In this document: positions 1 to 20,635 of the stretch, in pieces
How the letters are laid out: each line of letters opens with the position of its first letter
Position numbering within the stretch: the first letter of the stretch is position 1
IMG/VR virus record: IMGVR_UViG_3300025096_001669
Coordinates: 1 to 23,629 of that record
Origin: a virus
Direction: 5' to 3' (one strand)
Length of the DNA: 23,629 bases
Notes under the pieces: generated by a model
What the model was told of the DNA's origin: nothing
Databases searched by the model: none
Seen by the model: the letters and a program-made list of their open reading frames with translations, nothing else
Translations under genes and position numbers: made by a program

Positions 1-382
1 CCTCCTCTTCTGCCCATAAATGAGGTATCAAACTATTCTCACCAATCTCCATACCACCATGTTTATAAGTACTCTCACTTTTTATTGAATCAGACTTCCA
101 CCACTGTGTTACTCCTTCCTGCGGACCCCAAGTTACATTAATTTTTACATGATTGGTATAACCTGAATGATCTGTATGAATAGGAATTTTACTATAAGGT
201 GGAGTATAAAATGTTTCACCCATGTATAACTCAACACCAAGATTATTCATCCAGTTATATAACTCAGGAAATTCAAAAGCATTGTACAAATAATTATGCT
301 GAATGATATCTCTTTCTTCATCAAAATGTGATAAAGGTTTAATCTCAAATGGTAGATTAAGATACCGATGACATTTGTTCAT
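1..382 (-). CDS. Possible Fe(II)/2-oxoglutarate-dependent oxygenase, 3' part outside window
   Basis: About 127 codons are visible from ATG at 382 to the left edge with no stop, so the C-terminus is missing. The start overlaps the halogenase stop in an ATGA arrangement (TGA at 381-379), which implies translational coupling and a shared operon. Seen: a beta-strand-like stretch ending in an H-x-D motif (His69, Asp71, in IPIHTD), followed by VKINVTWGP. In the Fe(II)/2OG oxygenase fold, HxD supplies two of the three iron ligands; the expected distal His and the 2OG-binding Arg would lie beyond the window. T4-like cyanophages commonly carry such oxygenases. The family call is an inference from one short motif. 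A cupin or another metal-binding jelly roll remains possible. Confidence 0.5.
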   Translation of the reverse strand, partial: MNKCHRYLNLPFEIKPLSHFDEERDIIQHNYLYNAFEFPELYNWMNNLGVELYMGETFYTPPYSKIPIHTDHSGYTNHVKINVTWGPQEGVTQWWKSDSIKSESTYKHGGMEIGENSLIPHLWAEEE

Positions 383-1821
383 GATATAGCATCCTTATGT
401 GATATCCATTTCCACCTTTTCTTTTCAATTTCTAAAATCCTATACTCATTTTTCATCTCATCCCATATCTTTCTTCCATCAATCTTATATTCTAAGAAAT
501 TCTTAATTGATTGATTATTAACCATATTAAGACCCTTTGCAATCTGAATATAACTATCAAGTATCCAGAAAGTTTTCTCTCGATGACAAGTTCTGGCATC
601 TAAAAATTCTTCCCTACATTTCTCATCAAAATTCTTAACCCAATCTACTTTATTGGCAGTCATATATCTCCAAAACTCAGAATCAGTTCTATTTGTATTA
701 TAATGTAAGCAAATAAAATCAATTATCTCTTCATGTAATTTTCTATTAGCCTTGTTTATTATTACCCTATTATATTGTAAGTTATTCAAAGTAGAATTTA
801 TCGTCATAAATTCTTGAACTTGAGATAAAATAATTTGTATTCCTGTAGACTCTAATGGTTCAACAAATCCACTAGATAATCCTATTGCTAAACAATTACC
901 AATCCAATAATCTTCATAATATCCAGATCTATAACGAATAATCCTATCAGTTTGTAACTCTGCATTGTGATTTTTTAATAACCATTCATTATATTTTTCT
1001 CTTGCTTCTTCATCAGAAGTAAATCTTGACGAGTAAATATATCCTGTTCCAAATCTATCTCCAATTGGTAATTGCCAAATCCATCCATTCTCTGTTGCTT
1101 CTGCCACAGTGTGAGAAGGAATTTCATTAGAATTATTAGGAACTTGTTGAGGAATTGCTCTATCTAATGGTAAAGAATTAGAAAGATCATTCCACTTAGG
1201 ATTTAAATGTTTAAATAAGACTGCATTAAACCCAGAAGCATCGATAAAAAGATCTGCCTCAACAATACCACTATCTCGACATCTTATACTCGTAATATTC
1301 TCACCATCAACAATTACTTCCTCTACTAAATCATCTACGAGATCTATCTTGCCTTTTAATTTCTTAATAACATACTCAGAAAATTCCTGAGTATCAAGAT
1401 GTAGTGCATAATCATACTTATCAAATGGTAACTTTGGAATCGTAGTAGTTGCTTCATTATAATTGGTTCCACCATTAAATTTACCCTGAGTAATAGAATA
1501 TACACCACTAGAATTCAGGTTAGGTTTATATATTTGACCAAACCCATGAAAATATTCTGTACCAGGAATCCAATTCTTAAAATTAATTCCTAACTTTAAA
1601 GAAGCATTATTCCTAAATTCTTTAAAAAATTGCTCAGTAGTTACTCCAAGATGTGACAAAAGCAATCTAATAATTGGAGTTGTACTTTCTCCTACTGCAA
1701 TATTCTTACTGGTTGCATCATAATAAAGAGATATATCTACCTTATTACCCCAATAATTTTTCATCATTGCGGCACAGCACAATCCAGCAGTACCAGACCC
1801 AACAATTACAATTTTTTTCAT
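379..1821 (-). CDS. Flavin-dependent tryptophan-halogenase-family protein
   Basis: 480 aa, close to the usual length of about 500-540 for this family. These enzymes use FADH2, O2 and chloride or bromide to make hypohalous acid, which a lysine passes to an aromatic substrate. Seen: the FAD-binding GxGxxG at residues 8-13 (GSGTAG), the VGEST segment near residue 45, Lys76 in LKLGINFKNW at the place of PrnA Lys79, the WxWxxP flavin-halogenase signature WIWQLP at 247-252, and PLESTG with Glu324 at the place of PrnA Glu346. All the key residues are present, so the enzyme looks intact. No flavin reductase is visible nearby; the host would have to supply reduced flavin. A CCTAAATA late promoter lies 22 nt upstream, which puts expression with the virion genes. 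It is coupled by overlap to the oxygenase-like gene. The substrate (free Trp, peptide or other) cannot be read from sequence. Confidence 0.9.
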   Translation of the reverse strand: MKKIVIVGSGTAGLCCAAMMKNYWGNKVDISLYYDATSKNIAVGESTTPIIRLLLSHLGVTTEQFFKEFRNNASLKLGINFKNWIPGTEYFHGFGQIYKPNLNSSGVYSITQGKFNGGTNYNEATTTIPKLPFDKYDYALHLDTQEFSEYVIKKLKGKIDLVDDLVEEVIVDGENITSIRCRDSGIVEADLFIDASGFNAVLFKHLNPKWNDLSNSLPLDRAIPQQVPNNSNEIPSHTVAEATENGWIWQLPIGDRFGTGYIYSSRFTSDEEAREKYNEWLLKNHNAELQTDRIIRYRSGYYEDYWIGNCLAIGLSSGFVEPLESTGIQIILSQVQEFMTINSTLNNLQYNRVIINKANRKLHEEIIDFICLHYNTNRTDSEFWRYMTANKVDWVKNFDEKCREEFLDARTCHREKTFWILDSYIQIAKGLNMVNNQSIKNFLEYKIDGRKIWDEMKNEYRILEIEKKRWKWISHKDAIS

Positions 1822-3965: not shown

Positions 3966-6900
3966 TTATTTATCCGATAGTTTTTGTTCAAGGCTATCAA
4001 CCTTAGCAGACAATTCCTTGACTGCTTCAATTAGGAGTGCAGTGAGTTTTTCATACTTAACCGCTTTAATTCCAGTCTCTCTTGTAACAGCAAGACCAGG
4101 AAGTCCAAGAGCTTCAATCTCTTGTGCGATAACACCAGTATCTTCTCCACTATGTATTGCACCTTCTTTCCATGTAAATGTATTACCACTAATAGAAAGA
4201 ACTTTAGCAAGAGGATCGTCAATAGGTGTAATATTCTCTTTCAGAGTTTCGTCAGAAGACCAGAATGCTGTAATATCACCTGTACATCTAATGTCTCCAT
4301 CAAAGTCAGCACTTTTGAACGTAGAAACACCAGTTACTTCAAAAGCATCATCAACTATAACCGTACCACCAGTAGAATCAAGGGTTAAATTACCAGTTGC
4401 AGTATCAATTTCACCATTACCACTTACACCAATTCTAACCTCATCAATGTGTGCCTCAGACCAAGGTTTGGATGCGGTTCCAAAATATGCACCCTCATCA
4501 GTATCAGGAACTATACCAGTACGAACTTCAACTTCACCAACTAATGTGGAAATACCACTTACACCAAAATCACCATTTACCCATAAGTCATCAGCGAATG
4601 TAGCAGCTGCAGTAACACTAAGGGCATTACAATCTAACTGGTCGAATACGGTAACACCAACTCCAGAAGTTTCTAATCGTTTTGTACCCTTATAATATAA
4701 AGCTGTTGAACTATTTTCAGTAGCAACAAGTAGATTTGCTGAATCAGCACTATTTTTTAAATTAATAGTACTACCAGTAATATTTAAATCTCCAGTGCCT
4801 TGATCCTTAATGTAACTATGTGTACCTGAATGGAAGACTGCTAGATCGTCATCATTACCAAATGTTGCTTGAGCATTGTCTGGAAGACGTATAGATGATC
4901 CAGCACCAAGATTAACTGTTCCTCCAATACCAACACCACCAACAACCACCAAAGCACCTGAGTTCTTATTAGTTGAAGCAGTTGTATCACTAATCTTTAA
5001 TGCACCCTTAAGAGTGAATTTACCCTTAGCAATAACCTCATTATTAAATGTAACTGGACCGTCAAATTCTGAAAGAATCTCATTTGAATCTCCACCTTCT
5101 ACTACAAGTCTCTCTTTAATAGTAACTTCATCAAAGACAACACTTAATCTTGCAGGATCTTCACCAGTAACAGTTGGAACTGGAGTATCGAATGTCCTTT
5201 CTTCACCAGTAGAAGATGATTTCTTCTGGTTTCCAATAAAGAAGTCACCCTTACTGTTCATACCAGTGTAAACAACAACACCAGCAGATCTTTCTTGTGC
5301 CTGAGATAGATACTCTTCAGTTTCAGTCAGAGTTCTATCCTGAACTTGTGGAAGTCCAGTTGAATAGTTACCAGGACCAAATCCAAGATATTCAAATGTA
5401 TGTCCAGATGCACGTAGAATAGAAGGACGACGGAATTCAATTGGAATCGATTGTATCTTATTAATGTAAGATCCAACAGCGTGTGTTGCAATTCCAGTTC
5501 CTAAAGTACCACGTATTACTGTGAGTTCATCGTTATTAACACCAGATAAAGTGCTACTTGCGATTCTCATAACTTCATCATCAACTTGGACATATGTACC
5601 AAGTGGGAATCTCTTAGTAGTTGCAATACCAGAAGAAGGAGCAGTTACCTTAAGTTTGTTATCGCCATTATATCCGGAAATTTTTAAATATTCATTATCA
5701 TATAATGAAAATCCTCTAGCAGCAATACCCTCAACATCTCTATCAGAAATGGAATCATTCGCAGATAAACCATGTTTTAACAAATATTTTGGATCGTTAG
5801 AACCAGCAAATAAATCTGCATTAGTAAGAGTAGTAAATGTATTAACACCTACTCTTGATTTTACTAGATAATCTCCAAGTTTATTGTTATTAACATCAGT
5901 AAGTGTAAATCTACTACCAGCAACTAGTCCATGAGCAAAATCACAAACTATTGTTGAATTTCCAGTTGTTGAATCATAAGTAGAACTTGTACTTACATCT
6001 ACAACAGGAGCAACAGGAACTACAAATTGTCCAGCAATGCTAAATGGATCACCTACTGATTTTCCGATAGCAATTGTATTCTTGCCAGGAATATCTAAGA
6101 CTCTATAATGTCCTCCAGCAGTTGTTCCAATACCTGTTACCTGAACAACATTACCAGAACCACCTGTTAAATTACTAGAAGCAATTGATATCTTCGAGTT
6201 TGCAGTTCCACCAATATAAGCAGTGTCAACAAATAACTCATTACCTGCCTGATATCCAGAACCAGGAGATTGAACATCTACACTAACAACAGCACCACCT
6301 TGAACACCAACAACTGCTGTAGCACCATTCCAACTAGATAATCCAACCTCATTAAAGAGTTTTACATTATAATAGGTTCCATTAACATGTCCAGAACCAG
6401 CAGTAATAGTACTATATGTTGCAATTCCAGAAAGATTATGATTCTTTGTTAGAGTTAATGTTGCAATACCAGCAACAACACTTAAAGCAGATTCGCTTGA
6501 TATAGTAAGATCTTTATCAAAGTTCTTAATAAATGAATCTGTAGATGCTCTAGTAAGACTCTTCTTAAGGTCACTTGTTTGAACTTTACCAAGAGGAGCT
6601 CTTAAAGCAAATGATTTAGCAGACTCAGGACTATCATCTAAATTATCCCTATCCATCTGAGGATAAAGGTCTGTGACATTCTGACTATATTCTAAATCTG
6701 TAAATTCTGTAGTAATTCCAACATCAGCATTTAATGCGTAGATATGATAGATACCATCTTGCTGATTCTGAATATAATCAGAAACGGTTTCATTCCTATA
6801 AACATAAAGATTATTTTGTAAATCATTTACCTCAAATCTTGGTAAACTACTATCTCTAGTAGTTAAATCATTTGTTAATGCTGGACCAGGAACCCTACCA

Positions 6901-9620
6901 GTTGTGTAGGTATATTCCATTTCATTAGGAACTGATACAACAGTAAATGTTCCATTATATCCACTATTACCAACACCTGTAGTATTGGTTGTATCTTTTA
7001 TATTGTGTGTAATAACAACATCACCAGCATCTAAATTATGTGGAAGTTCTGTTCTAACTGATACTGTTCCACCTGAATATGTACAACTACCAATAAATCT
7101 TGGATTTCTATTATATCCATAATCTACTCTACTAATAGAATTGAGAAGGAAATCGCCATCAGTTCTTATACCAGTAGTACTAGATTCTTGAATAATGAAT
7201 CCACTTTCAGGATTCTTTGCATTAGTAAGTTCTTTTGGAATTACAACTCTAAGTTTGTAAATCTTTTCATCTAAACTTCTGCTATCTGCTGTTCTCTTAA
7301 AGTATGCTGATTCTGTTCTTGCCCCAGCTCCTTCACCAGTAGATACACCAACTGTATTGAATGTGGTATAAATTTCATTATCTGCCTTGGCAGTAACATA
7401 CCATTGACCTTGAGTATTATCCCACTGAACAGGATGCCCAATATCACCAGATACTTTATCACTTACTCTACTTAAAATAGTAAGATTGGTTCCACCATAA
7501 ACATCGATAGCCTCACTATTATCTGCATCAGCCTTTGAAGAAGCTAATTTTATGTCATTATTATTACCCATATTAATGACATAATATATGGTTTCTCCCT
7601 CCAAGTTCTCTGGCAAGTCACCATCGTTACTACGGATAATAACTTTCTCACCTGTTTGGAGAGAATGTGCATTAATAGAGAATTTATTTAATGTTGGTCC
7701 AGATATTACTGGATATTCTTTAGCACTACTGGTTTGACCATCACTCATGGTGACGTATGCTTCACTTATACCATATCCAGTAACACTCGTGAAGTCTACA
7801 AATATTTTATCGTTTCGTTTTGCACCAACTCTATATCCCTGTGTAAGAGATCCAGGTAAAACATCTTGATTAGTGAATCCATAAAGATACAATCTACTAG
7901 TATTTGCAACAGCAGTTGTTACACCAACATCCAATCCATACCATTCAACATCCTCTTCAGTACCATTAATTGCTCTAGGTGTAATGAGGTTAGTAACAAA
8001 TGCCTTATTATCTTTCGCAAATGCTTCTTTCTTAAATCCAGTAGCAGTAAGTGATAATTGTCCAAAGTTTGAGTTGGAGTTAGTAATAGAAGCATCACCA
8101 CCAGTATTAGCACTAAAGTGTCTATTATATCCAATAGCAAATACTGAAACTATCTGAAGAATTGCATCATTATCAATTCTAATATGACCAGTTTCCCAAC
8201 CACTTCTGTAAATAGCGTCAGAATCTAAATGATAGATTGTATTGGGATTAGTTGATGATGATTCAGCAGCAAGTGTAGATGCTGTTACCTTAGTAGTTGA
8301 AAGTCCTTCGTATTTTCTATTAGACTTATTATATTTTACAAATGCCCTATCGTCTTTCTGTAATGATATACCCGTAAACTGGGCAACAACCATTGATTTA
8401 AATCCAGATGCCTTTCCACCATCTGCCGACATTCCGTTCATACCATAAACAGAACGCAATGAGCAGTTAAAGATATATGGTGAAGCACCAGATACGGTAT
8501 CAGTCTCAATTGTTACTTTTGCTGCGGATGCGTTTGCTGGTGTGGTTAAATTCTTTCTATAGTCTGGAAGTAGATATGTAAATACCTTCTTATTAGTAGC
8601 AGAAACACTCTGAACTGTTGTAGAAATATTATAATCAGATGGGGAAACATCTTCAATTTTAATTGGAGTTCCTTGTTGGAATCCATGATCAGTTTTACAT
8701 GTAACAGTAACAATATTACTAGGAGTTCCACCTGAACCTGCTTCAATAGCAGAAATCTCAACTGGGTCAGCAGCAAATGCACCTACAATTTCCCATTCTG
8801 GTCTTTGCTTCTCAAATCCTTCTGGATTAGCAGGATATTTCTCATCAATATCTCTACCTGATGCAGTATTATATGCGTTAGAAAGTTTCGCATAATACAT
8901 GTCAAGATCAGTAAGATTATAGTTACCTACATTATTGACACCATCCGCATATTCAAAACAAGTTAATTTGTGGTGGGAGAATATTGGTTTTGATCTATTA
9001 TCTACTGAGAAATCTTTATCATCAGTATAAACTACTCCAGCTTCATCACCATCAAACATAGTGAATTGCCAGAAATAACAGCCACCAGTAATCCTGAAGA
9101 TTGCCGATGTGCCAACAGTAGCATCAGTTGGATTTGGTACATATTTTGGTCGGAATTTTGTCTTTCTTAAATCTAGACCAACAACAGATGTACCTCTAGG
9201 TATAACAATACCACCATTAACACTATTAAACTTATAAAGAATATTATCTTCTTGCTCAAGATCGAAATTTGAATCTAGCTTAAGGTTTAGGGTATCCTGT
9301 GCTGCTGTTTCCGATCCACCAGGAGAAAATACTTTTGCTACCCCACCAATATTTTTAAGTGCAAATCCGGGTCTATTATCAATGGTATGCGCTCCAGGCA
9401 TCAAGAGGATTGTAGTCTTCTCTATAGCATCATTACTGTTACCTTTCAAATAAGAGAATCTTGCCGCTTCCAAAAGTGCTCTTTGAAGCGTCTTGAATGG
9501 TTGAGCAAGTGAATTGCCCTGATTATTAATACTATCCGTAGAGTCTAAATCGCTCGGACTCACATAAAGAATGCGACCCTCTGTATTCTTTATAAAATTA
9601 TCTAATTTATTCAGCGGCAT
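3966..9620 (-). CDS. Giant tail-fibre protein with C-terminal S74 intramolecular chaperone
   Basis: 1884 aa, the largest gene here. The N-terminus (residues 1-90, with GRILYVSPSDLDSTDS and PFKTLQRALLEAARFSY) matches a cyanophage structural-protein type with a beta-helix or pectin-lyase-like look. The long middle part is beta-rich with no catalytic motif I recognise. Residues of about 1650-1780 carry fibre repeats (ATFADDLWVNGDFGVSGIST). The last 96 residues are a peptidase S74 / endosialidase-type chaperone domain beginning SDETLKENI, with GVIAQEIEALGLP and a final coiled coil. Ser1789, Asp1790 and Lys1794 have the same spacing as endosialidase Ser911/Asp912/Lys916, so self-cleavage between Ser1789 and Asp1790 is predicted after trimer folding. 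An ACTAAATA late promoter lies 32 nt upstream. It probably acts in host recognition as a distal tail structure. Confidence 0.9.
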   Translation of the reverse strand: MPLNKLDNFIKNTEGRILYVSPSDLDSTDSINNQGNSLAQPFKTLQRALLEAARFSYLKGNSNDAIEKTTILLMPGAHTIDNRPGFALKNIGGVAKVFSPGGSETAAQDTLNLKLDSNFDLEQEDNILYKFNSVNGGIVIPRGTSVVGLDLRKTKFRPKYVPNPTDATVGTSAIFRITGGCYFWQFTMFDGDEAGVVYTDDKDFSVDNRSKPIFSHHKLTCFEYADGVNNVGNYNLTDLDMYYAKLSNAYNTASGRDIDEKYPANPEGFEKQRPEWEIVGAFAADPVEISAIEAGSGGTPSNIVTVTCKTDHGFQQGTPIKIEDVSPSDYNISTTVQSVSATNKKVFTYLLPDYRKNLTTPANASAAKVTIETDTVSGASPYIFNCSLRSVYGMNGMSADGGKASGFKSMVVAQFTGISLQKDDRAFVKYNKSNRKYEGLSTTKVTASTLAAESSSTNPNTIYHLDSDAIYRSGWETGHIRIDNDAILQIVSVFAIGYNRHFSANTGGDASITNSNSNFGQLSLTATGFKKEAFAKDNKAFVTNLITPRAINGTEEDVEWYGLDVGVTTAVANTSRLYLYGFTNQDVLPGSLTQGYRVGAKRNDKIFVDFTSVTGYGISEAYVTMSDGQTSSAKEYPVISGPTLNKFSINAHSLQTGEKVIIRSNDGDLPENLEGETIYYVINMGNNNDIKLASSKADADNSEAIDVYGGTNLTILSRVSDKVSGDIGHPVQWDNTQGQWYVTAKADNEIYTTFNTVGVSTGEGAGARTESAYFKRTADSRSLDEKIYKLRVVIPKELTNAKNPESGFIIQESSTTGIRTDGDFLLNSISRVDYGYNRNPRFIGSCTYSGGTVSVRTELPHNLDAGDVVITHNIKDTTNTTGVGNSGYNGTFTVVSVPNEMEYTYTTGRVPGPALTNDLTTRDSSLPRFEVNDLQNNLYVYRNETVSDYIQNQQDGIYHIYALNADVGITTEFTDLEYSQNVTDLYPQMDRDNLDDSPESAKSFALRAPLGKVQTSDLKKSLTRASTDSFIKNFDKDLTISSESALSVVAGIATLTLTKNHNLSGIATYSTITAGSGHVNGTYYNVKLFNEVGLSSWNGATAVVGVQGGAVVSVDVQSPGSGYQAGNELFVDTAYIGGTANSKISIASSNLTGGSGNVVQVTGIGTTAGGHYRVLDIPGKNTIAIGKSVGDPFSIAGQFVVPVAPVVDVSTSSTYDSTTGNSTIVCDFAHGLVAGSRFTLTDVNNNKLGDYLVKSRVGVNTFTTLTNADLFAGSNDPKYLLKHGLSANDSISDRDVEGIAARGFSLYDNEYLKISGYNGDNKLKVTAPSSGIATTKRFPLGTYVQVDDEVMRIASSTLSGVNNDELTVIRGTLGTGIATHAVGSYINKIQSIPIEFRRPSILRASGHTFEYLGFGPGNYSTGLPQVQDRTLTETEEYLSQAQERSAGVVVYTGMNSKGDFFIGNQKKSSSTGEERTFDTPVPTVTGEDPARLSVVFDEVTIKERLVVEGGDSNEILSEFDGPVTFNNEVIAKGKFTLKGALKISDTTASTNKNSGALVVVGGVGIGGTVNLGAGSSIRLPDNAQATFGNDDDLAVFHSGTHSYIKDQGTGDLNITGSTINLKNSADSANLLVATENSSTALYYKGTKRLETSGVGVTVFDQLDCNALSVTAAATFADDLWVNGDFGVSGISTLVGEVEVRTGIVPDTDEGAYFGTASKPWSEAHIDEVRIGVSGNGEIDTATGNLTLDSTGGTVIVDDAFEVTGVSTFKSADFDGDIRCTGDITAFWSSDETLKENITPIDDPLAKVLSISGNTFTWKEGAIHSGEDTGVIAQEIEALGLPGLAVTRETGIKAVKYEKLTALLIEAVKELSAKVDSLEQKLSDK
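3967..3974 (-). promoter_or_regulatory. Candidate T4-type late promoter (GATAAATA)
   Basis: GATAAATA differs from the T4 late element at one base. It overlaps the last codons and TAA stop of the 1884-aa fibre gene (GAT AAA TAA) and ends 17 nt before the ATG of the 700-aa gene. Confidence 0.55.
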
Positions 9621-9932: not shown

Positions 9933-10161
9933 AATTTATGCCATCAGACGGATTTGAACCGCCGACCTTGGCTTTACAAAAGCCCTGCACTACCGCTGTG
10001 CTATGATGGCAACCCATAAGAAATCTTTCTGCTAATCTAAATGCATCAGAATCCGATTCAATTAACTTTGACATCCAAATTCTCTGTGTAAGAGTAACTG
10101 TTCTACCAAGTTTGATTTTACAGCAAATCTCTGTTAAACGCAACCTACTATCTTTAGTCAC
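9931..10161 (-). CDS. Small cyanophage-type protein whose ORF runs through the tRNA-Thr gene
   Basis: 76 codons from GTG at 10161. Residues 1-50 (MTKDSRLRLTEICCKIKLGR, then TVTLTQRIWMSKLIESDSDA) look like a real basic helical protein and resemble a family of about 50-aa hypothetical proteins that I associate with T4-like cyanophages. The last 26 or so codons coincide with the tRNA gene; the segment VGGSNPSDG is simply the translated T arm. An AATAAATA late promoter lies 22 nt upstream. Either the mature protein really carries a tRNA-encoded tail, or the tRNA inserted into the 3' end of the gene, or tRNA processing cuts the message. The stop (TGA) forms part of the next late promoter. Start and function are uncertain. 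Confidence 0.6.
   Translation of the reverse strand: MTKDSRLRLTEICCKIKLGRTVTLTQRIWMSKLIESDSDAFRLAERFLMGCHHSTAVVQGFCKAKVGGSNPSDGIN
9939..10010 (-). tRNA. tRNA-Thr (anticodon UGU)
   Basis: A 72-nt cloverleaf can be folded by eye. The acceptor stem GCCATCA/TGATGGC is a perfect 7 bp with discriminator A. The D stem is GCAC/GTGC with loop AGCGGTA. The anticodon stem is GGGCT/AGCCA, where the outermost pair is a G-A mismatch, with loop TTTGTAA (U33, anticodon UGU). The T arm is GGCGG-TTCAAAT-CCGTC. CCA is not encoded. Anticodon UGU reads ACA and, by wobble, ACG and possibly other threonine codons. A tRNA-Thr with this anticodon is plausible cargo for an AT-rich phage in a less AT-rich host. It lies wholly inside, and in the same orientation as, a small ORF. 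Confidence 0.93.
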
Positions 10162-10183: not shown

Positions 10184-10191
10184 TATTTATT
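10184..10191 (-). promoter_or_regulatory. Candidate T4-type late promoter (AATAAATA)
   Basis: AATAAATA overlaps the TAA stop of the 62-aa gene (AAA TAA ATA) and ends 22 nt before the GTG start of the tRNA-containing ORF. Confidence 0.4.
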
Positions 10192-10375
10192 TTACAGCAA
10201 CATCAGCATATGTAATAATCTCTGGATTTGCTCTATCCGTAATAACCTTCACCACATTCATAAACTGTTCTGTAGTATCACATTCAACTGTTTTACTACT
10301 CCCTTCATCACTATGAAGAAGGATAGTTTTCTTACAAACATCAATCACAATACTCTCAACGCATTCAGCATCCAT
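10187..10375 (-). CDS. Small hypothetical protein of cyanophage type
   Basis: 62 aa, acidic and rich in beta-branched residues (SIVIDVCKKTILLHSDEG, then EQFMNVVKVITDRA). It resembles small conserved hypothetical proteins of T4-like cyanophages; no functional motif is visible. The start is supported by an AGGAA Shine-Dalgarno at 10388-10384, 8 nt before the ATG, and by a sigma70-like promoter whose -10 box ends 20 nt before it. It therefore looks like the first gene of an early or middle transcript that may continue into the tRNA. Three Cys residues are present (5, 14, 32) but without a metal-site pattern. Confidence 0.75.
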   Translation of the reverse strand: MDAECVESIVIDVCKKTILLHSDEGSSKTVECDTTEQFMNVVKVITDRANPEIITYADVAVK

Positions 10376-10424: not shown

Positions 10425-11308
10425 GGAGTATAAAGATCGTTTACAGCAGTAATCACAGTTGTCTCAGAAGTCTTCCTAGCTGTTATCTCTGATTCCAAAC
10501 TCTTACATCCCCAATTTTCCAATTCCTTATCTGCCTTTTTAGTTTTAACTATAATCAAATTTCCTCTTAGTGTATCCATATCACCCCTTAAAGTCATAAT
10601 TTCATTATATAAAGTAGTAATACTGCTTGCTATTTGAGCACAAGTTTGAGAACCACTAGCAGGTGAACCAGATCCGTTAATATCAAATCTACCTAAAGTA
10701 TTAATTCCACTACCACTTCCATCAGTTTTAAGACCAGTTACACCACTACTATTTTCCCTCACCATAGATTCTGCTACATTTGAATACCCATATCCAACTA
10801 ATACCTCAGTTAATGCTTTCGTACTATCAGGATCAAAAGGATTCTCTGTTCCAAAATCAACATCAGGTCCTGCCATCTTATCATATATGTTAATCCATTC
10901 CACTTCTTCTTTCATATTAATACAAGTAAATCCACCACCAACTTGGCTGGAAGTACAATTCATATGAGTACCAGCGTTAAGTGAAAGGGTAACTATCTGA
11001 CGTTTCTTATCATCAATCTGACTTGTAATTCCTAATAATCGACTATCAACTTCTCCACAAAATTGTTGTAAGGTTTTTGCATCATCTTCAATTTCCTTCT
11101 CCTTTTCACCAATTACACCCTCATCCTTAATATTAGTATCTACTGTGGTTTTATTCTCATCCCATGTCCCATCAGGATTTTCGGTGACAGTCACCTTATC
11201 CATTGTTTTGGGAGCTTCATATTCTGATTGCTTATCTTCTACCCCATCTAGTATATTTTGATCACCTTCAAGCAATTCAACCGTTCTGTTTTTTAAATTT
11301 TCATCCAT
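10421..11308 (-). CDS. Probable virion or fibre-associated protein, unknown function
   Basis: 295 aa. Its ATG overlaps the end of the upstream S74 gene by 8 nt (ATGGATGA), so the two are translationally coupled. Residues 1-75 are acidic and low-complexity (Asp/Glu/Lys/Thr-rich). The middle is Gly/Ser/Asn-rich (for example TDGSGSGINTLGRF). Residues of about 225-285 look helical and coiled-coil-like (TLYNEIMTLRGDMDTLRGNL). Five isolated cysteines are present, with no obvious zinc motif. Position after a small S74 fibre suggests a structural partner or adaptor of that fibre. I do not recognise the family. Confidence 0.75.
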   Translation of the reverse strand: MDENLKNRTVELLEGDQNILDGVEDKQSEYEAPKTMDKVTVTENPDGTWDENKTTVDTNIKDEGVIGEKEKEIEDDAKTLQQFCGEVDSRLLGITSQIDDKKRQIVTLSLNAGTHMNCTSSQVGGGFTCINMKEEVEWINIYDKMAGPDVDFGTENPFDPDSTKALTEVLVGYGYSNVAESMVRENSSGVTGLKTDGSGSGINTLGRFDINGSGSPASGSQTCAQIASSITTLYNEIMTLRGDMDTLRGNLIIVKTKKADKELENWGCKSLESEITARKTSETTVITAVNDLYTP

Positions 11309-12110
11309 GAGATTCTAGTACCGCTATTCTGGTTTTCAATTCTTCAATTTGTTCTTGTTGTTCTTTGACTGCTCCAATTAATACTGAAGTGAGTCTCGCA
11401 TAATCAACTCCTTTCCATTCATTGTCATAAAGTTTCTCTTTATTAACAAGTTCTGGAATAACTTCTTCAACTTCTTGTGCGATTAATCCAAGTTGTCTAC
11501 CTTCCTTTTGTGTCTTTAAAAAACTAGATGGAAGAACATCTTCTCTCCACTCATAAGACACTGGATTCAATTTTAGCACACTATCAAGAGAATTATTCAA
11601 TGGATTTACATTCTTTTTAATTCTTGCATCAGAATGAACATGAAGCCAACCTAATGGTCTTCCATTATATGTCCAGTTTCCTAGTAATCTACCACTTGAT
11701 GATAATAATTGATGTCTAGCTGTAATATCTCTCTTTGTAGTAGTAACAGTATTTTCAATTGCAACTACTTTACGATCCATACTTGCATAACATGCTCGTA
11801 AAGCACCAAGAGTTATATTAGAACCTATTTTAACATCTGTACCAATTAAAGTTCTTATTCCTGTTTCTAATCCTATACCTAAAAAATTCCACGTTAGTGG
11901 AGTTGGTATCGCTGGTGGTACTGCTATTGGAGGCCCAGCAACTATCGATGCACTATATGGAAGGGTACTAGATCCTTGTCCAAAATGTCCTTTATGTACT
12001 GATAAGATACCACCACCTGGCTCAGTAAAAATCTTTGGAAAGATTAAACCACCACCAACAACGGAATTAAAAACATCTAAATGTTGAACTTCTAATGAAT
12101 CAAATGCCAT
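11301..12110 (-). CDS. Short fibre-like protein with S74 intramolecular chaperone domain
   Basis: 269 aa. Residues 1-155 are Gly/Pro/beta-rich (PPIAVPPAIPTPLTWNFLG). From about residue 155 a peptidase S74 domain starts with HVHSDARIKKNV, followed by QLGLIAQEVEEVIPELV, DYARLTSVLIGAVKE and a C-terminal coiled coil. Ser160, Asp161 and Lys165 keep the catalytic Ser-Asp-x-x-x-Lys spacing, so cleavage after Ser160 is predicted, leaving a mature part of about 160 residues. An AGGAGA Shine-Dalgarno at 12121-12116 overlaps the stop of the gene before and lies 5 nt from the ATG, the strongest ribosome site noticed in the window. Placed beside hub and spike genes, it may be a short fibre or baseplate-attached protein. 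Confidence 0.87.
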   Translation of the reverse strand: MAFDSLEVQHLDVFNSVVGGGLIFPKIFTEPGGGILSVHKGHFGQGSSTLPYSASIVAGPPIAVPPAIPTPLTWNFLGIGLETGIRTLIGTDVKIGSNITLGALRACYASMDRKVVAIENTVTTTKRDITARHQLLSSSGRLLGNWTYNGRPLGWLHVHSDARIKKNVNPLNNSLDSVLKLNPVSYEWREDVLPSSFLKTQKEGRQLGLIAQEVEEVIPELVNKEKLYDNEWKGVDYARLTSVLIGAVKEQQEQIEELKTRIAVLESHG

Positions 12111-17576: not shown

Positions 17577-18893
17577 TTACACAAATATCCCATATATTGA
17601 TGGAGTTAAATGCCTATATGGATCTGCTCCATTACTACTTGCTACATTTGGAACATCATTTGCTGAGCCAGATGACTGATCAACTTCTGGCATCTTTGCA
17701 GTAATTGCTGGAAGATCAATTGGTATAATATTATTTGTCCCAAAATCAGAAAGGAATCCTTCTCCTCGATTTATCCTCTCAAGTCTACTGATTCCAATTT
17801 TTTGAGTAATTGCCGGTCTAAGAACAAATTCATGAGGATGAACTATTCCACCAGTTTCACCAGTATATCCACCTTTATTAAACATTTGTCCCATTCCTTC
17901 TCTTGTTATTGAATCTTCCCATGCTCGACCAACAGTTCTCCAGAAGTTACCCCACCAAGTACCTCCAGTATCAGCATTACCAACATCTTCAGGGTCATAA
18001 CTGATTCTAGGATTACTACCATCCTCATCCGTTACTATTACATTGGGTGTAATTTCACCACTCTCTTCTCTTATTTCATTTAATCTATCAACTCTCTTTT
18101 GACCAGCAATACCACCACCCAAAAATGCAAGTAGAGTCAATACCCAAGGATTAGCAAGAGCTGTTAAAGCTGCACCAATAGTTGTTATAAGACCAATTAT
18201 ATCCAAAGTAACTTTTGCCGCTACCAAAACCCCAAGAGTACCTGCTATCCACTTCCAATTCTTCCCTAAAATATTAAAGAACTTACCCATCTTTCTCTGA
18301 TTTTGTTCGTCCGTAAGCCAACCAAATACTACATTAGTTCCTATTCCTGCACCAATAATTCCAACAAACTCAAGTATCTTATCAAAAATTCCTTTAAAAG
18401 GAGTCATCATTTTAGATGCTGTAGCAGTAATTATATTTCCAACTCTCTTTGATGATTGTTCTATTGAAGATTCTTCTTCTTTAAATCTTTTTCTCGATGT
18501 TTGTAATTTTAATTTCTCCTCTGCCTCCTTAGCTTCAGCAATACGATTAGCAAAATCTAATGCTAATGCATTCCCAATATCTTCAAGAATTGTTGTTGTC
18601 TCTGTTAATACACCATGAAGTTGATTTAATCTTATTGCTTGTCCATTAATTCTTGAATGTAATGATGCAACCTCAGCCTGAACAGCTCTTATAATATTAG
18701 CAAGAGGATTAGCTTGCGGAGCATCTATCTTAGGTGGTGCTAAAAGACTTGGTTGTGTTCCTATTGATTTTGCAAGAGTTCCAAAAGGAAGAGTCTTTCC
18801 TCCAAAAACAGCACTACTAGATGTCGAATTAAAAATCGAACTAGACGAAATTGACTTTCTTAATGATTGTGATTGTTGATTAATGAACGCCAT
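17577..18893 (-). CDS. Tape-measure-like tail protein (gp29 analogue)
   Basis: 438 aa. Residues of about 75-150 are predicted helical (LHGVLTETTTILEDIGNALA; AKEAEEKLKLQTSRKRFKEE). Residues of about 181-258 form two or three hydrophobic segments (ILEFVGIIGAGIGTNVVFGW, ALANPWVLTLLAFLGGG). Near residues 340-360 lies GGYTGETGGIVHPHEFVLRP, a form of the GG-x-H-x-x-E-F-V motif common near the C-terminus of tail tape-measure proteins. Its start overlaps the 60-aa ORF by 14 nt. Gene order (gp26, 60-aa ORF in the -1 frame, this protein) parallels lambda G, T, H. At 438 aa it is shorter than T4 gp29 (590). Tape-measure assignment is inferred from motif, hydrophobicity and position. Confidence 0.7.
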   Translation of the reverse strand: MAFINQQSQSLRKSISSSSIFNSTSSSAVFGGKTLPFGTLAKSIGTQPSLLAPPKIDAPQANPLANIIRAVQAEVASLHSRINGQAIRLNQLHGVLTETTTILEDIGNALALDFANRIAEAKEAEEKLKLQTSRKRFKEEESSIEQSSKRVGNIITATASKMMTPFKGIFDKILEFVGIIGAGIGTNVVFGWLTDEQNQRKMGKFFNILGKNWKWIAGTLGVLVAAKVTLDIIGLITTIGAALTALANPWVLTLLAFLGGGIAGQKRVDRLNEIREESGEITPNVIVTDEDGSNPRISYDPEDVGNADTGGTWWGNFWRTVGRAWEDSITREGMGQMFNKGGYTGETGGIVHPHEFVLRPAITQKIGISRLERINRGEGFLSDFGTNNIIPIDLPAITAKMPEVDQSSGSANDVPNVASSNGADPYRHLTPSIYGIFV

Positions 18894-19062
18894 TACGTTG
18901 TTGGTGCTTTAAATTTTCCTCTTCAATGTATTGTTGGAGTAAAGAGACATAAACCTCTCTTTCCCAAGGAATCATATTTTCTAGCTCTGTTAATGAATAT
19001 TTATGATGTTGCATCAAAGCAAAATTAGTCTTATAGTATGACTCAAGACTAGTATGAGCCAT
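18880..19062 (-). CDS. 51: gp51-like baseplate hub assembly factor; probable -1 frameshift extension of gp26
   Basis: 60 aa: MAHTSLESYYKTNFALMQHH, then KYSLTELENMIPWEREVYVS and LLQQYIEEE. The pattern aromatic-YY...LExMxPWERE...YIEEE is the short 'gp51' hub-assembly type of T4-like cyanophages and also resembles the C-terminal extension of tape-measure chaperones. The ATG lies 2 nt after the gp26 stop, in the -1 frame relative to gp26, and is buried in a 6-bp hairpin. No good Shine-Dalgarno lies at normal distance; GGAGGG is about 24 nt upstream of the ATG. Translation as a -1 frameshift fusion to gp26 (18880-19787, 302 aa), alone or besides independent initiation, fits the sequence. The frameshift is inferred. 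Confidence 0.8.
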   Translation of the reverse strand: MAHTSLESYYKTNFALMQHHKYSLTELENMIPWEREVYVSLLQQYIEEENLKHQQRNGVH

Positions 19063-19092
19063 ACTTAGCTGAAAAAAGCTGCTAATCCCTCC
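19026..19092 (-). promoter_or_regulatory. Candidate programmed -1 ribosomal frameshift site
   Basis: Reading the minus strand: GGAGGG (19092-19087), 9 nt, slippery heptamer T_TTT_TTC (19077-19071) in the gp26 frame (GCT TTT TTC AGC TAA), 5 nt, then hairpin AGTATG-GCT-CATACT (19065-19051). A second possible stem TAGTCTT/AAGACTA (19051-19045 with 19032-19026) follows. After slippage the codons are TTT TTT CAG CTA AGT ATG, open into the 60-aa ORF. The element order and spacing are like the E. coli dnaX -1 site (Shine-Dalgarno, slippery heptamer, hairpin). Confidence 0.7.
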
Positions 19093-19787
19093 AATACAAC
19101 TTCAGATTCTACTTTAGTCTTAGGATTCTTCACTACAACTGTATGAGTTAGTTTAGGCATTGTAGTAAAAAACTTTTCAATTTGCTTAAACTGTTTCGTA
19201 TTCAACTGCTCGATAAATTCTTCCAACTCTTTTTGCGTTGAATCAGATGCATTCCAACTTTCTTCTTCATTGTATATCATATCAATACATGATGTAATCA
19301 TACTTAAAGACTGTCCAACATTATTCTGCACATCACGGACATCAAAATTACTTTCTATAAATTGATCCAAAGAAGGATACCTAAGTTTCATTGAAAGTTC
19401 ATCATTAATTTTTATAGTACTTCTATGTGCTCGATTCTTCTTAACTTTGATAGCATCAATATCAATTTCCATCTGAACTTTGGTTTCACCATCATCAGGA
19501 CATGTCACGTTCACTTCTACTTTTTCACCAACAGACTTAGAACGAACATTTAAGAACAAATATTCAATATCAAAAGTAGAAAGTTTTTCAACTTTAATAC
19601 CCTTAGTAATAATACAATCACTTAAAATCTGAACAATCGAATCTGTAATCTGTTTCATATCATCAGATTCCATTGCCATGATTAATATCTTTTCTTCTCT
19701 TACTAGAAAAGGACGATATTTAATTTTCTTTCCAGTCGAAGGTAATTCCAACTCAAATGTTGGGGTATTAATTTTCGGTAAAGGCAT
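19065..19787 (-). CDS. 26: Baseplate hub / hub-assembly protein gp26
   Basis: 240 aa (T4 gp26 is 208). The sequence FELELPSTGKKIKYRPFLVR followed by EEKILIMAMES is characteristic of the T4 gp26 hub family, as are VTCPDDGETKVQMEIDI and MKLRYPSLDQFIE. The protein has no membrane segment. It ends AAFFS with TAA two nucleotides before the 60-aa gp51-like ORF, and the codons for its last residues form a slippery heptamer, so a fraction of ribosomes may extend it. The upstream 38-nt gap has no clear nnTAAATA promoter or Shine-Dalgarno; expression probably comes from the gp54 promoter. Its role in hub assembly is known for T4; the chaperone analogy with lambda gpG is inferred from gene order. Confidence 0.87.
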   Translation of the reverse strand: MPLPKINTPTFELELPSTGKKIKYRPFLVREEKILIMAMESDDMKQITDSIVQILSDCIITKGIKVEKLSTFDIEYLFLNVRSKSVGEKVEVNVTCPDDGETKVQMEIDIDAIKVKKNRAHRSTIKINDELSMKLRYPSLDQFIESNFDVRDVQNNVGQSLSMITSCIDMIYNEEESWNASDSTQKELEEFIEQLNTKQFKQIEKFFTTMPKLTHTVVVKNPKTKVESEVVLEGLAAFFS

Positions 19788-19825: not shown

Positions 19826-20635
19826 CTAAATGTAAGCTTCTGGACCTGCTGAAGAATCGTCACGTCCAGGATTTGAACCTGAACCAGGTTGTACATCAAT
19901 AGATGGAATATCTCTATAAGTTCTATATCCCTCACCAGTTCTATCTTGTATAGAAAGTCCATCATCAAAATTAGAATATCTTGGTACATCACGGAAGAAA
20001 CCTACATTAGACTTCCTAATAGAACCTCTAGGATTCATTATATAACGATCATAGTTAAAGGAAATAGTCACTCTTAATAAATCAGCAGCACCATAAGATA
20101 CAGGAATTGCTGTAACCAATTTGGGGAATGCATTTATAAATTGAAAATCTATCTGAGAATCTAAATCTCGTTCAAACTTTGAAATAAACATTGTTTGAAC
20201 TTTATATTCATCTGGATATCTAAATCTTCTATAATAATTATCATTTAATTCACCGAGTTCACCACCACTTGAAATGAAATCCATCCATCCTTCAAAGATT
20301 TGCAAATTAGTATAATCACTATCAATATAAAAAGTAAAATCAATATCAGTATATAAACGAGTATGAGCATACTCTTGAGGAATGCCCATAAAATTATCCT
20401 TTACTTCTCCAGTTGCGAATGAACTTGATGGAAGTGATGCATCAGAACAAAGCAATCCAGTTTTTCTTGATAAAAATTCTGCGGGATTAGGTATTCCAAT
20501 ATAATTAACCAAGTGCCGCATTATTGAATTATTTAATGCAGAAAAACTCACAAGATAATGATTGGTTTGCGCGAGATCACCAACTACATCCCTCACCTGA
20601 TTCATTGTTATTTTTCTAACAAGTCTATTTGCCAT
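19826..20635 (-). CDS. 54: Baseplate-tail tube initiator gp54
   Basis: 269 aa (T4 gp54 is 320). The tube-protein-like core is visible: LPSSSFATGEVKDNFMGIPQ, then YAHTRLYTDIDFTFYIDSDY and NLQIFEGWMDFISSG, a pattern shared by gp19/gp54-type tube proteins. A segment MFISKFERDLDSQIDFQFIN and FPKLVTAIPVSYGAADLLRV follows, and the last 55 residues are a low-complexity Gly/Ser/Asp/Pro tail. First gene of the leftward operon; a TCTAAATA late promoter lies 31 nt upstream. In T4, gp54 starts tube polymerisation on the baseplate with gp48, which here is the third gene of the divergent operon. A tail tube (gp19) paralogue is the alternative, but tube proteins are shorter. Confidence 0.75.
   Translation of the reverse strand: MANRLVRKITMNQVRDVVGDLAQTNHYLVSFSALNNSIMRHLVNYIGIPNPAEFLSRKTGLLCSDASLPSSSFATGEVKDNFMGIPQEYAHTRLYTDIDFTFYIDSDYTNLQIFEGWMDFISSGGELGELNDNYYRRFRYPDEYKVQTMFISKFERDLDSQIDFQFINAFPKLVTAIPVSYGAADLLRVTISFNYDRYIMNPRGSIRKSNVGFFRDVPRYSNFDDGLSIQDRTGEGYRTYRDIPSIDVQPGSGSNPGRDDSSAGPEAYI

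Follow-up and report, generated by a model that had tools for sequence, protein, structure and literature searches.

A probable programmed -1 frameshift at the end of gene 26 in T4-like phages and its predicted short and long tail-assembly chaperones

The viral record IMGVR_UViG_3300025096_001669, of a T4-like marine phage, supplied the 23,629-nucleotide stretch of DNA analyzed here (the window), which carries a T4-like gene 26 with a probable programmed -1 frameshift site at its end. All coordinates are those of the window, and the locus was read on the minus strand. The 0-frame product, gp26, was called as an open reading frame (ORF) of 240 residues (19065-19787) that matches PF12322 (E 5e-72) and phrog_150 (E 5e-80), and its gene ends with GCA GCT TTT TTC AGC TAA. 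Within this ending lies the slippery heptamer T_TTT_TTC (19071-19077), in register with gp26, and the stop codon TAA (19065-19067) follows after one sense codon. The -1 frame is open to 18880 and contains a 60-residue gp51-like ORF (18880-19062); the predicted fusion reads ...LAAFF/QLSMAHTSLESYYK... and has 239 + 63 = 302 residues, with the 63-residue extension after the slip (18880-19071) as the C-terminal domain of the predicted long form. The 60-residue ORF matches phrog_634 (E 1e-28), labeled as a baseplate hub assembly catalyst, and also positions 239-278 of phrog_150, which are the part of the gp26-family profile beyond gp26 proper. A Shine-Dalgarno (SD)-like block, GGAGGG (19087-19092), is located nine nucleotides 5' of the heptamer, and a predicted stimulatory stem-loop (19035-19065) lies 3' of it. 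The heptamer and its register, the position of GGAGGG and the absence of a stop in the -1 frame ahead of the 60-residue ORF were all as the original prediction, made from the sequence of the window, had described them.

The heptamer was invariant in all 79 readable sequences among 80 close viral relatives. Sixteen further phages were added (of Sinorhizobium, Rhizobium, Pseudomonas, Stenotrophomonas, Cronobacter, Vibrio, Aeromonas, Pseudoalteromonas and Acinetobacter, with cyanophages and RB43), and all scans together gave 267 readable loci, which redundancy removal reduced to 39 clusters at less than 60% identity and to 21 at less than 40%. An in-register T_TTT_TTN was present at the homologous position in 264 of the 267 gp26 loci, with C, T, A or G as the last base, and was found in each of the 39 clusters and each of the 21. 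The codon before Phe-Phe always ends in T (GAT, AGT, AAT, GCT, TCT, CGT, ACT or GGT), a wobble choice for which log10 P was -11.3 over the 39 clusters, or -22.3 when the TTT codon was included, and the other Phe-Phe sites of the same loci were written NNT TTT TTN in 19 of 517 cases. The second Phe codon had changed to TTA or TTG, both of which encode Leu, in three clusters with the heptamer intact, and this indicates that the RNA motif was kept where the protein had changed. Among the relatives' other long ORFs, 129 in all, none had an in-register T_TTT_TTN within the last 10 codons, and the motif was found in register 15 times in 39,529 codon pairs.

The phase of the extension was equally constant. 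A hidden Markov model (HMM) of the tail, as we refer to the extension and its homologues, placed the homologue in the -1 phase in each of the 265 loci where one exists, and in no other phase within the heptamer-bearing group, where a tail in varying phases would have spoken for separate genes. Read-through of the stop and the +1 frame were rejected as routes to an extended product, as these frames either closed early or had no tail homologue.

Duplex formation between GGAGGG and the anti-SD sequence was calculated at -9.8 kcal/mol. Strong SD-like sites were present in 24 of the 39 clusters, which is a mild enrichment over synonymous-codon randomizations (mean z -1.0). The downstream element consists of an 11-bp stem with a 9-nucleotide loop, separated from the heptamer by a 5-nucleotide spacer; the arm AGTATGGCTCA (19065-19055) pairs with TGAGTCATACT (19045-19035), with one G-U pair. 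Its folding energy in the window had a z of -4.2 relative to synonymous-codon randomization. Over the 39 clusters the downstream structure had a mean z of -1.75 with 49% of values below -1.64; control windows from these genes gave a mean of -0.56 with 15% below that cut-off. Pairing was intact in 94.5% of the cells of the 11-bp stem across 28 related sequences, and 5 of its 11 pairs have changed on both sides, a level reached in 0 of 500 shuffles, which leave relatedness in. A sister cyanophage clade has another hairpin, of 5 bp (GGTCC/GGACC), a few bases further downstream, and its 24 cells changed on both sides also exceeded all shuffles of this kind; slid controls dropped off for both hairpins. 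Synonymous conservation over the hairpin was 0.82, versus 0.60-0.64 in the gene body.

An earlier candidate, a hairpin of 6 bp with a 3-nucleotide loop, was replaced by the 11-bp stem, as P-SSM2 breaks the former and retains the latter. The original prediction was right about the 5-nucleotide spacing and about the tail ATG lying inside the hairpin, and wrong about the size of the hairpin. RNAalifold on mixed clades recovered just a 6-pair part of the stem, and the clades were therefore analyzed separately. About half of the 39 clusters have no obvious simple stem, and the downstream structure is thus not universal. The prediction had also looked to conservation of the junction across relatives: the heptamer and the -1 phase are conserved, downstream hairpins covary in two cyanophage clades and are not evident in roughly half of the clusters, and the purine block is only mildly enriched.

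Comparison with T4 provided a direct counterpart to the two predicted products. T4 gp26 and T4 gp51 are members of one family, PF12322, and their sequences align at E 2e-6. T4 gp26 (...GLKEFFELL) ends at the position of the heptamer and T4 gp51 continues into the extension; in agreement with this, the tail HMM matches the C-terminus of T4 gp51 and not T4 gp26. Short and long paralogues were found in T4, RB43, Aeromonas 31 and Proteus phiP4-3, with the tail HMM matching the long ones only, and the T6 run was absent from both paralogues in all four phages. A core tree, built by a quick method and with several long branches, placed the short and the long paralogues on one side of a branch with 96% support in the Shimodaira-Hasegawa-like approximate likelihood ratio test (SH-aLRT), a grouping in keeping with a duplication in the T4 group. 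The AlphaFold models of the window's gp26 and of a T4-like gp51 (predicted local distance difference test, pLDDT, 87 and 88, respectively) have matching orders of elements, and the gp51 model adds helices 206-221, 226-230 and 234-248 after the slip point.

In the Ackermannviridae and related Vibrio phages the tail is also in the -1 phase, and the T_TTT_TTN heptamer is absent. Their gp26 genes end with ATT TTC ATT TAA, GTT TTC ATC TGA, CTT TTC or CTT TTT, the tail ATG is usually absent, and the -1 tail is often unannotated in Ackermannviridae records. The candidate slip site in the Ackermannviridae homologues is NTT TT[C/T], represented in Serratia MAM1 by GGTTTTC, which is the frameshift site of T7 gene 10. 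The gp26 homologues of Vibrio phages D509 and 207E48.1 have no T6 heptamer and have a stop that overlaps an ATG (TAATG); these phages may re-initiate, and they are the sole group here in which re-initiation looks as likely as frameshifting. Taken together, these observations raise the prospect of a T4-like chaperone gene whose RNA stimulator has been re-invented repeatedly, with differing covarying stem-loops at a near-equal distance from an invariant heptamer across clades. The Ackermannviridae would have swapped the heptamer for a T7-like NTT TT[C/T] while keeping the -1 phase, and duplication in the T4 relatives would have removed both. We regard the chances for and against this scenario as evenly balanced.

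The gene preceding gp26 (19826-20635) encodes a gp54-like protein of the tail-tube family (PF23849 Phage_TTP_2, E 1e-21; phrog_45 tail tube, E 2e-35). The next gene after gp26 and the tail (17577-18893), which overlaps the tail ORF by 14 nucleotides, encodes 438 residues with three hydrophobic segments by hydropathy and is a candidate tape measure gene. The order in the window, tail-tube-like gene, gp26, tail and 438-residue gene, parallels lambda V-G-T-H, and the placement of tail tube and tape measure genes around the chaperone gene is clear in Rhizobium I1_18, phiM19 and ValKK3. In the Ackermannviridae this position is taken by a hub/lysozyme gene, the next large one annotated, and not by a tape measure gene. 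The lengths of the two genes after gp26/51 differ greatly among cyanophages: they encode 438 and 382 residues in the window, and the first of them encodes 972 residues in Syn30. The pair lies at 4895-8711 in Syn30 and at 4934-8705 in MC09. This variation would deserve attention if either gene determines the length of the tail.

We propose that gene 26 gives rise to tail-assembly chaperones of two lengths through -1 programmed frameshifting, a reading to which we assign a probability of about 0.93. Most ribosomes would terminate at TAA and produce gp26, the short form (TAC-N). A minority would be delayed by the 11-bp stem-loop five nucleotides ahead, with pairing of GGAGGG to the anti-SD sequence behind the ribosome probably adding to the delay, and would shift back by a single base at T_TTT_TTC as tRNA-Phe re-pairs from TTT TTC to TTT TTT. 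Slipped ribosomes would add the 63 residues that complete the gp26-51 fusion, the long form. If lambda gpG/gpGT is a guide, the tape measure protein would be coated by many copies of the short form and a few of the long one, and the extension would recruit the tail tube or hub. Because T4 gp26 stops at the slip point and T4 gp51 reads into the tail, gp26 and gp26-51 can be viewed as a short/long chaperone pair, and a TAC-N/TAC-NC pair is the best-supported reading of their function. The frameshift and the lambda G/GT analogy had both been put forward in the original prediction, and the heptamer, the -1 phase, the lack of a tail start codon in most clusters, the covarying stem, the SD-like block of the window and the T4 gp26/gp51 pair uphold them.

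Several observations weigh against this interpretation. In 13 of the 39 clusters, including that of the window, an ATG in the -1 frame is close after the slip site, and re-initiation could therefore add a free tail peptide. The 438-residue protein resembles tape measure proteins only weakly (PHROG E 8e-4), less than the original prediction had it, although the corresponding gene in relatives matches tape-measure profiles more clearly, down to E 3e-13. The most probable fold match of gp26 in the PDB was HK97 gp14 (2ob9), a suggestive similarity at a probability of 0.33 and E 1.8; searching the PDB by fold with the long form produced no meaningful match and did not return HK97 gp14, and a PDB sequence search with the gp26 profile gave no match. 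Neither sequence nor fold comparison proved a shared ancestry with lambda G or HK97 gp14. The signals, their conservation, the phase, the covariation and the homology between the extension and the C-terminal end of T4 gp51 are observed in the sequences, while we infer the slipping, the slip rate and the chaperone function.

A very unlikely alternative, in our estimation, is that the 60-residue ORF is a separate gene translated from its own ATG (19062-19060) by re-initiation after the gp26 stop, with the heptamer mere Phe-Phe coding. That ATG is kept in all 79 readable close relatives, TAATG or TGATG overlaps occur in several distant phages, and the tail is annotated as its own gene in records, although it is unannotated in those of Cronobacter S13, Aeromonas AS-zj and Syn30. 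However, the ATG is within the 5' arm of the stem with no SD sequence near it, as GGAGGG is more than 20 nucleotides upstream, and of 78 tail ATGs in a set made non-redundant at 90% identity, 2 are accompanied by an SD-like site. In 21 of the 39 clusters there is no ATG, GTG or TTG among the first nine -1 codons. A separate gene is also at odds with the constant -1 phase, with a codon choice at the heptamer that far exceeds the needs of Phe-Phe coding, and with the fusion of the same domain in frame in T4.

The homopolymeric run of 6-8 T could instead suggest slippage of the RNA polymerase, with an extra base inserted at the T6 run and edited mRNAs as the result. We consider this the most improbable of the alternatives, as every locus holds the run in the T_TTT_TTN register, preceded by a base other than T, and the stem-loop and its spacing suit a ribosomal site; a run of six T is also short for polymerase slippage. 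A real frameshift whose products are structural or catalytic proteins of the baseplate hub, not tape-measure chaperones, is unlikely, though less so than the other two. Some genetic work put T4 gp26 in the hub (PMC3004832), but that review classes both gp26 and gp51 among the hub assembly chaperones and reports that gp51 is missing from the final particle. Known tail chaperones also share the short/long scheme and the gene order, and the chaperone identification has been published, to judge from the reference as cited in PMC12846349.

Other genes of the window included one for a flavin-dependent tryptophan halogenase (379-1821, minus strand; PF04820, E 1.5e-84), beside tail-fibre-like genes; phage-borne halogenases of this type are known from cyanophages. 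A tRNA-Thr (TGT) gene (9938-10011, minus strand) lies between structural genes, and a 62-residue protein with DUF7294 (PF23966, E 5e-20) is encoded at 10187-10375 (minus strand). The gene at 11301-12110 (minus strand) encodes a C-terminal Peptidase_S74 (endosialidase chaperone) domain, PF13884, and has two internal in-register TTTTTTA heptamers, probably by chance.

The abstract of a 2022 study of T4-like phages by Vladimirov et al. reportedly states that several groups of them frameshift and that T4 has separate genes 26 and 51. Tail chaperone genes in T4-like phages were identified in that study (Vladimirov, Gautam and Davidson, Virology 2022, as cited in PMC12846349), and the citing text of PMC12846349, a 2025 paper, credits it for poly-T frameshift signals in these phages. 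A direct literature search on a gp26/gp51 frameshift in cyanophages returned no prior report, the 2022 work being known through its citation. The belief in the original prediction that the frameshift was undescribed for this gene pair was thus mistaken: with a 2022 publication on it in T4-like phages, we regard the gp26 frameshift as real and correctly read, but not new. A review by Atkins et al. in 2016 described G-T frameshifting as conserved among long-tailed phages "except T4" (PMC5009743). This exception is explained if close and distant relatives frameshift and the T4 group has two genes instead, an answer that appears to have been in print since 2022. The present comparison adds stronger evidence, the RNA element and an annotation correction, and the covarying stem-loops and the T7-like sites of the Ackermannviridae may be additions to the 2022 work. 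Cyanophage genes annotated as "gp51 / baseplate hub assembly catalyst" are, on this evidence, the -1 end of gp26.

The lambda G/GT heptamer is GGGAAAG, unlike that of the window. The lambda system shares with gp26 the short/long scheme (PMC5009743) and the gene order, and it differs in that the window has a clear downstream stem-loop, with no protein homology shown between the systems. The chaperone locus of the Vandenendeviridae and Andersonviridae likewise has a -1 shift on a poly-T motif, GTTTTT (PMC12846349), although its site and that of T7 gene 10 differ from the window's. T4 gp26 and gp51 have a homologous core, and gp51 has a homologous extension, but in T4 they are two separate genes without a slippery site. 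The T4-like phages of Vladimirov et al., as far as the citing text describes them, have these genes and the same short/long scheme.
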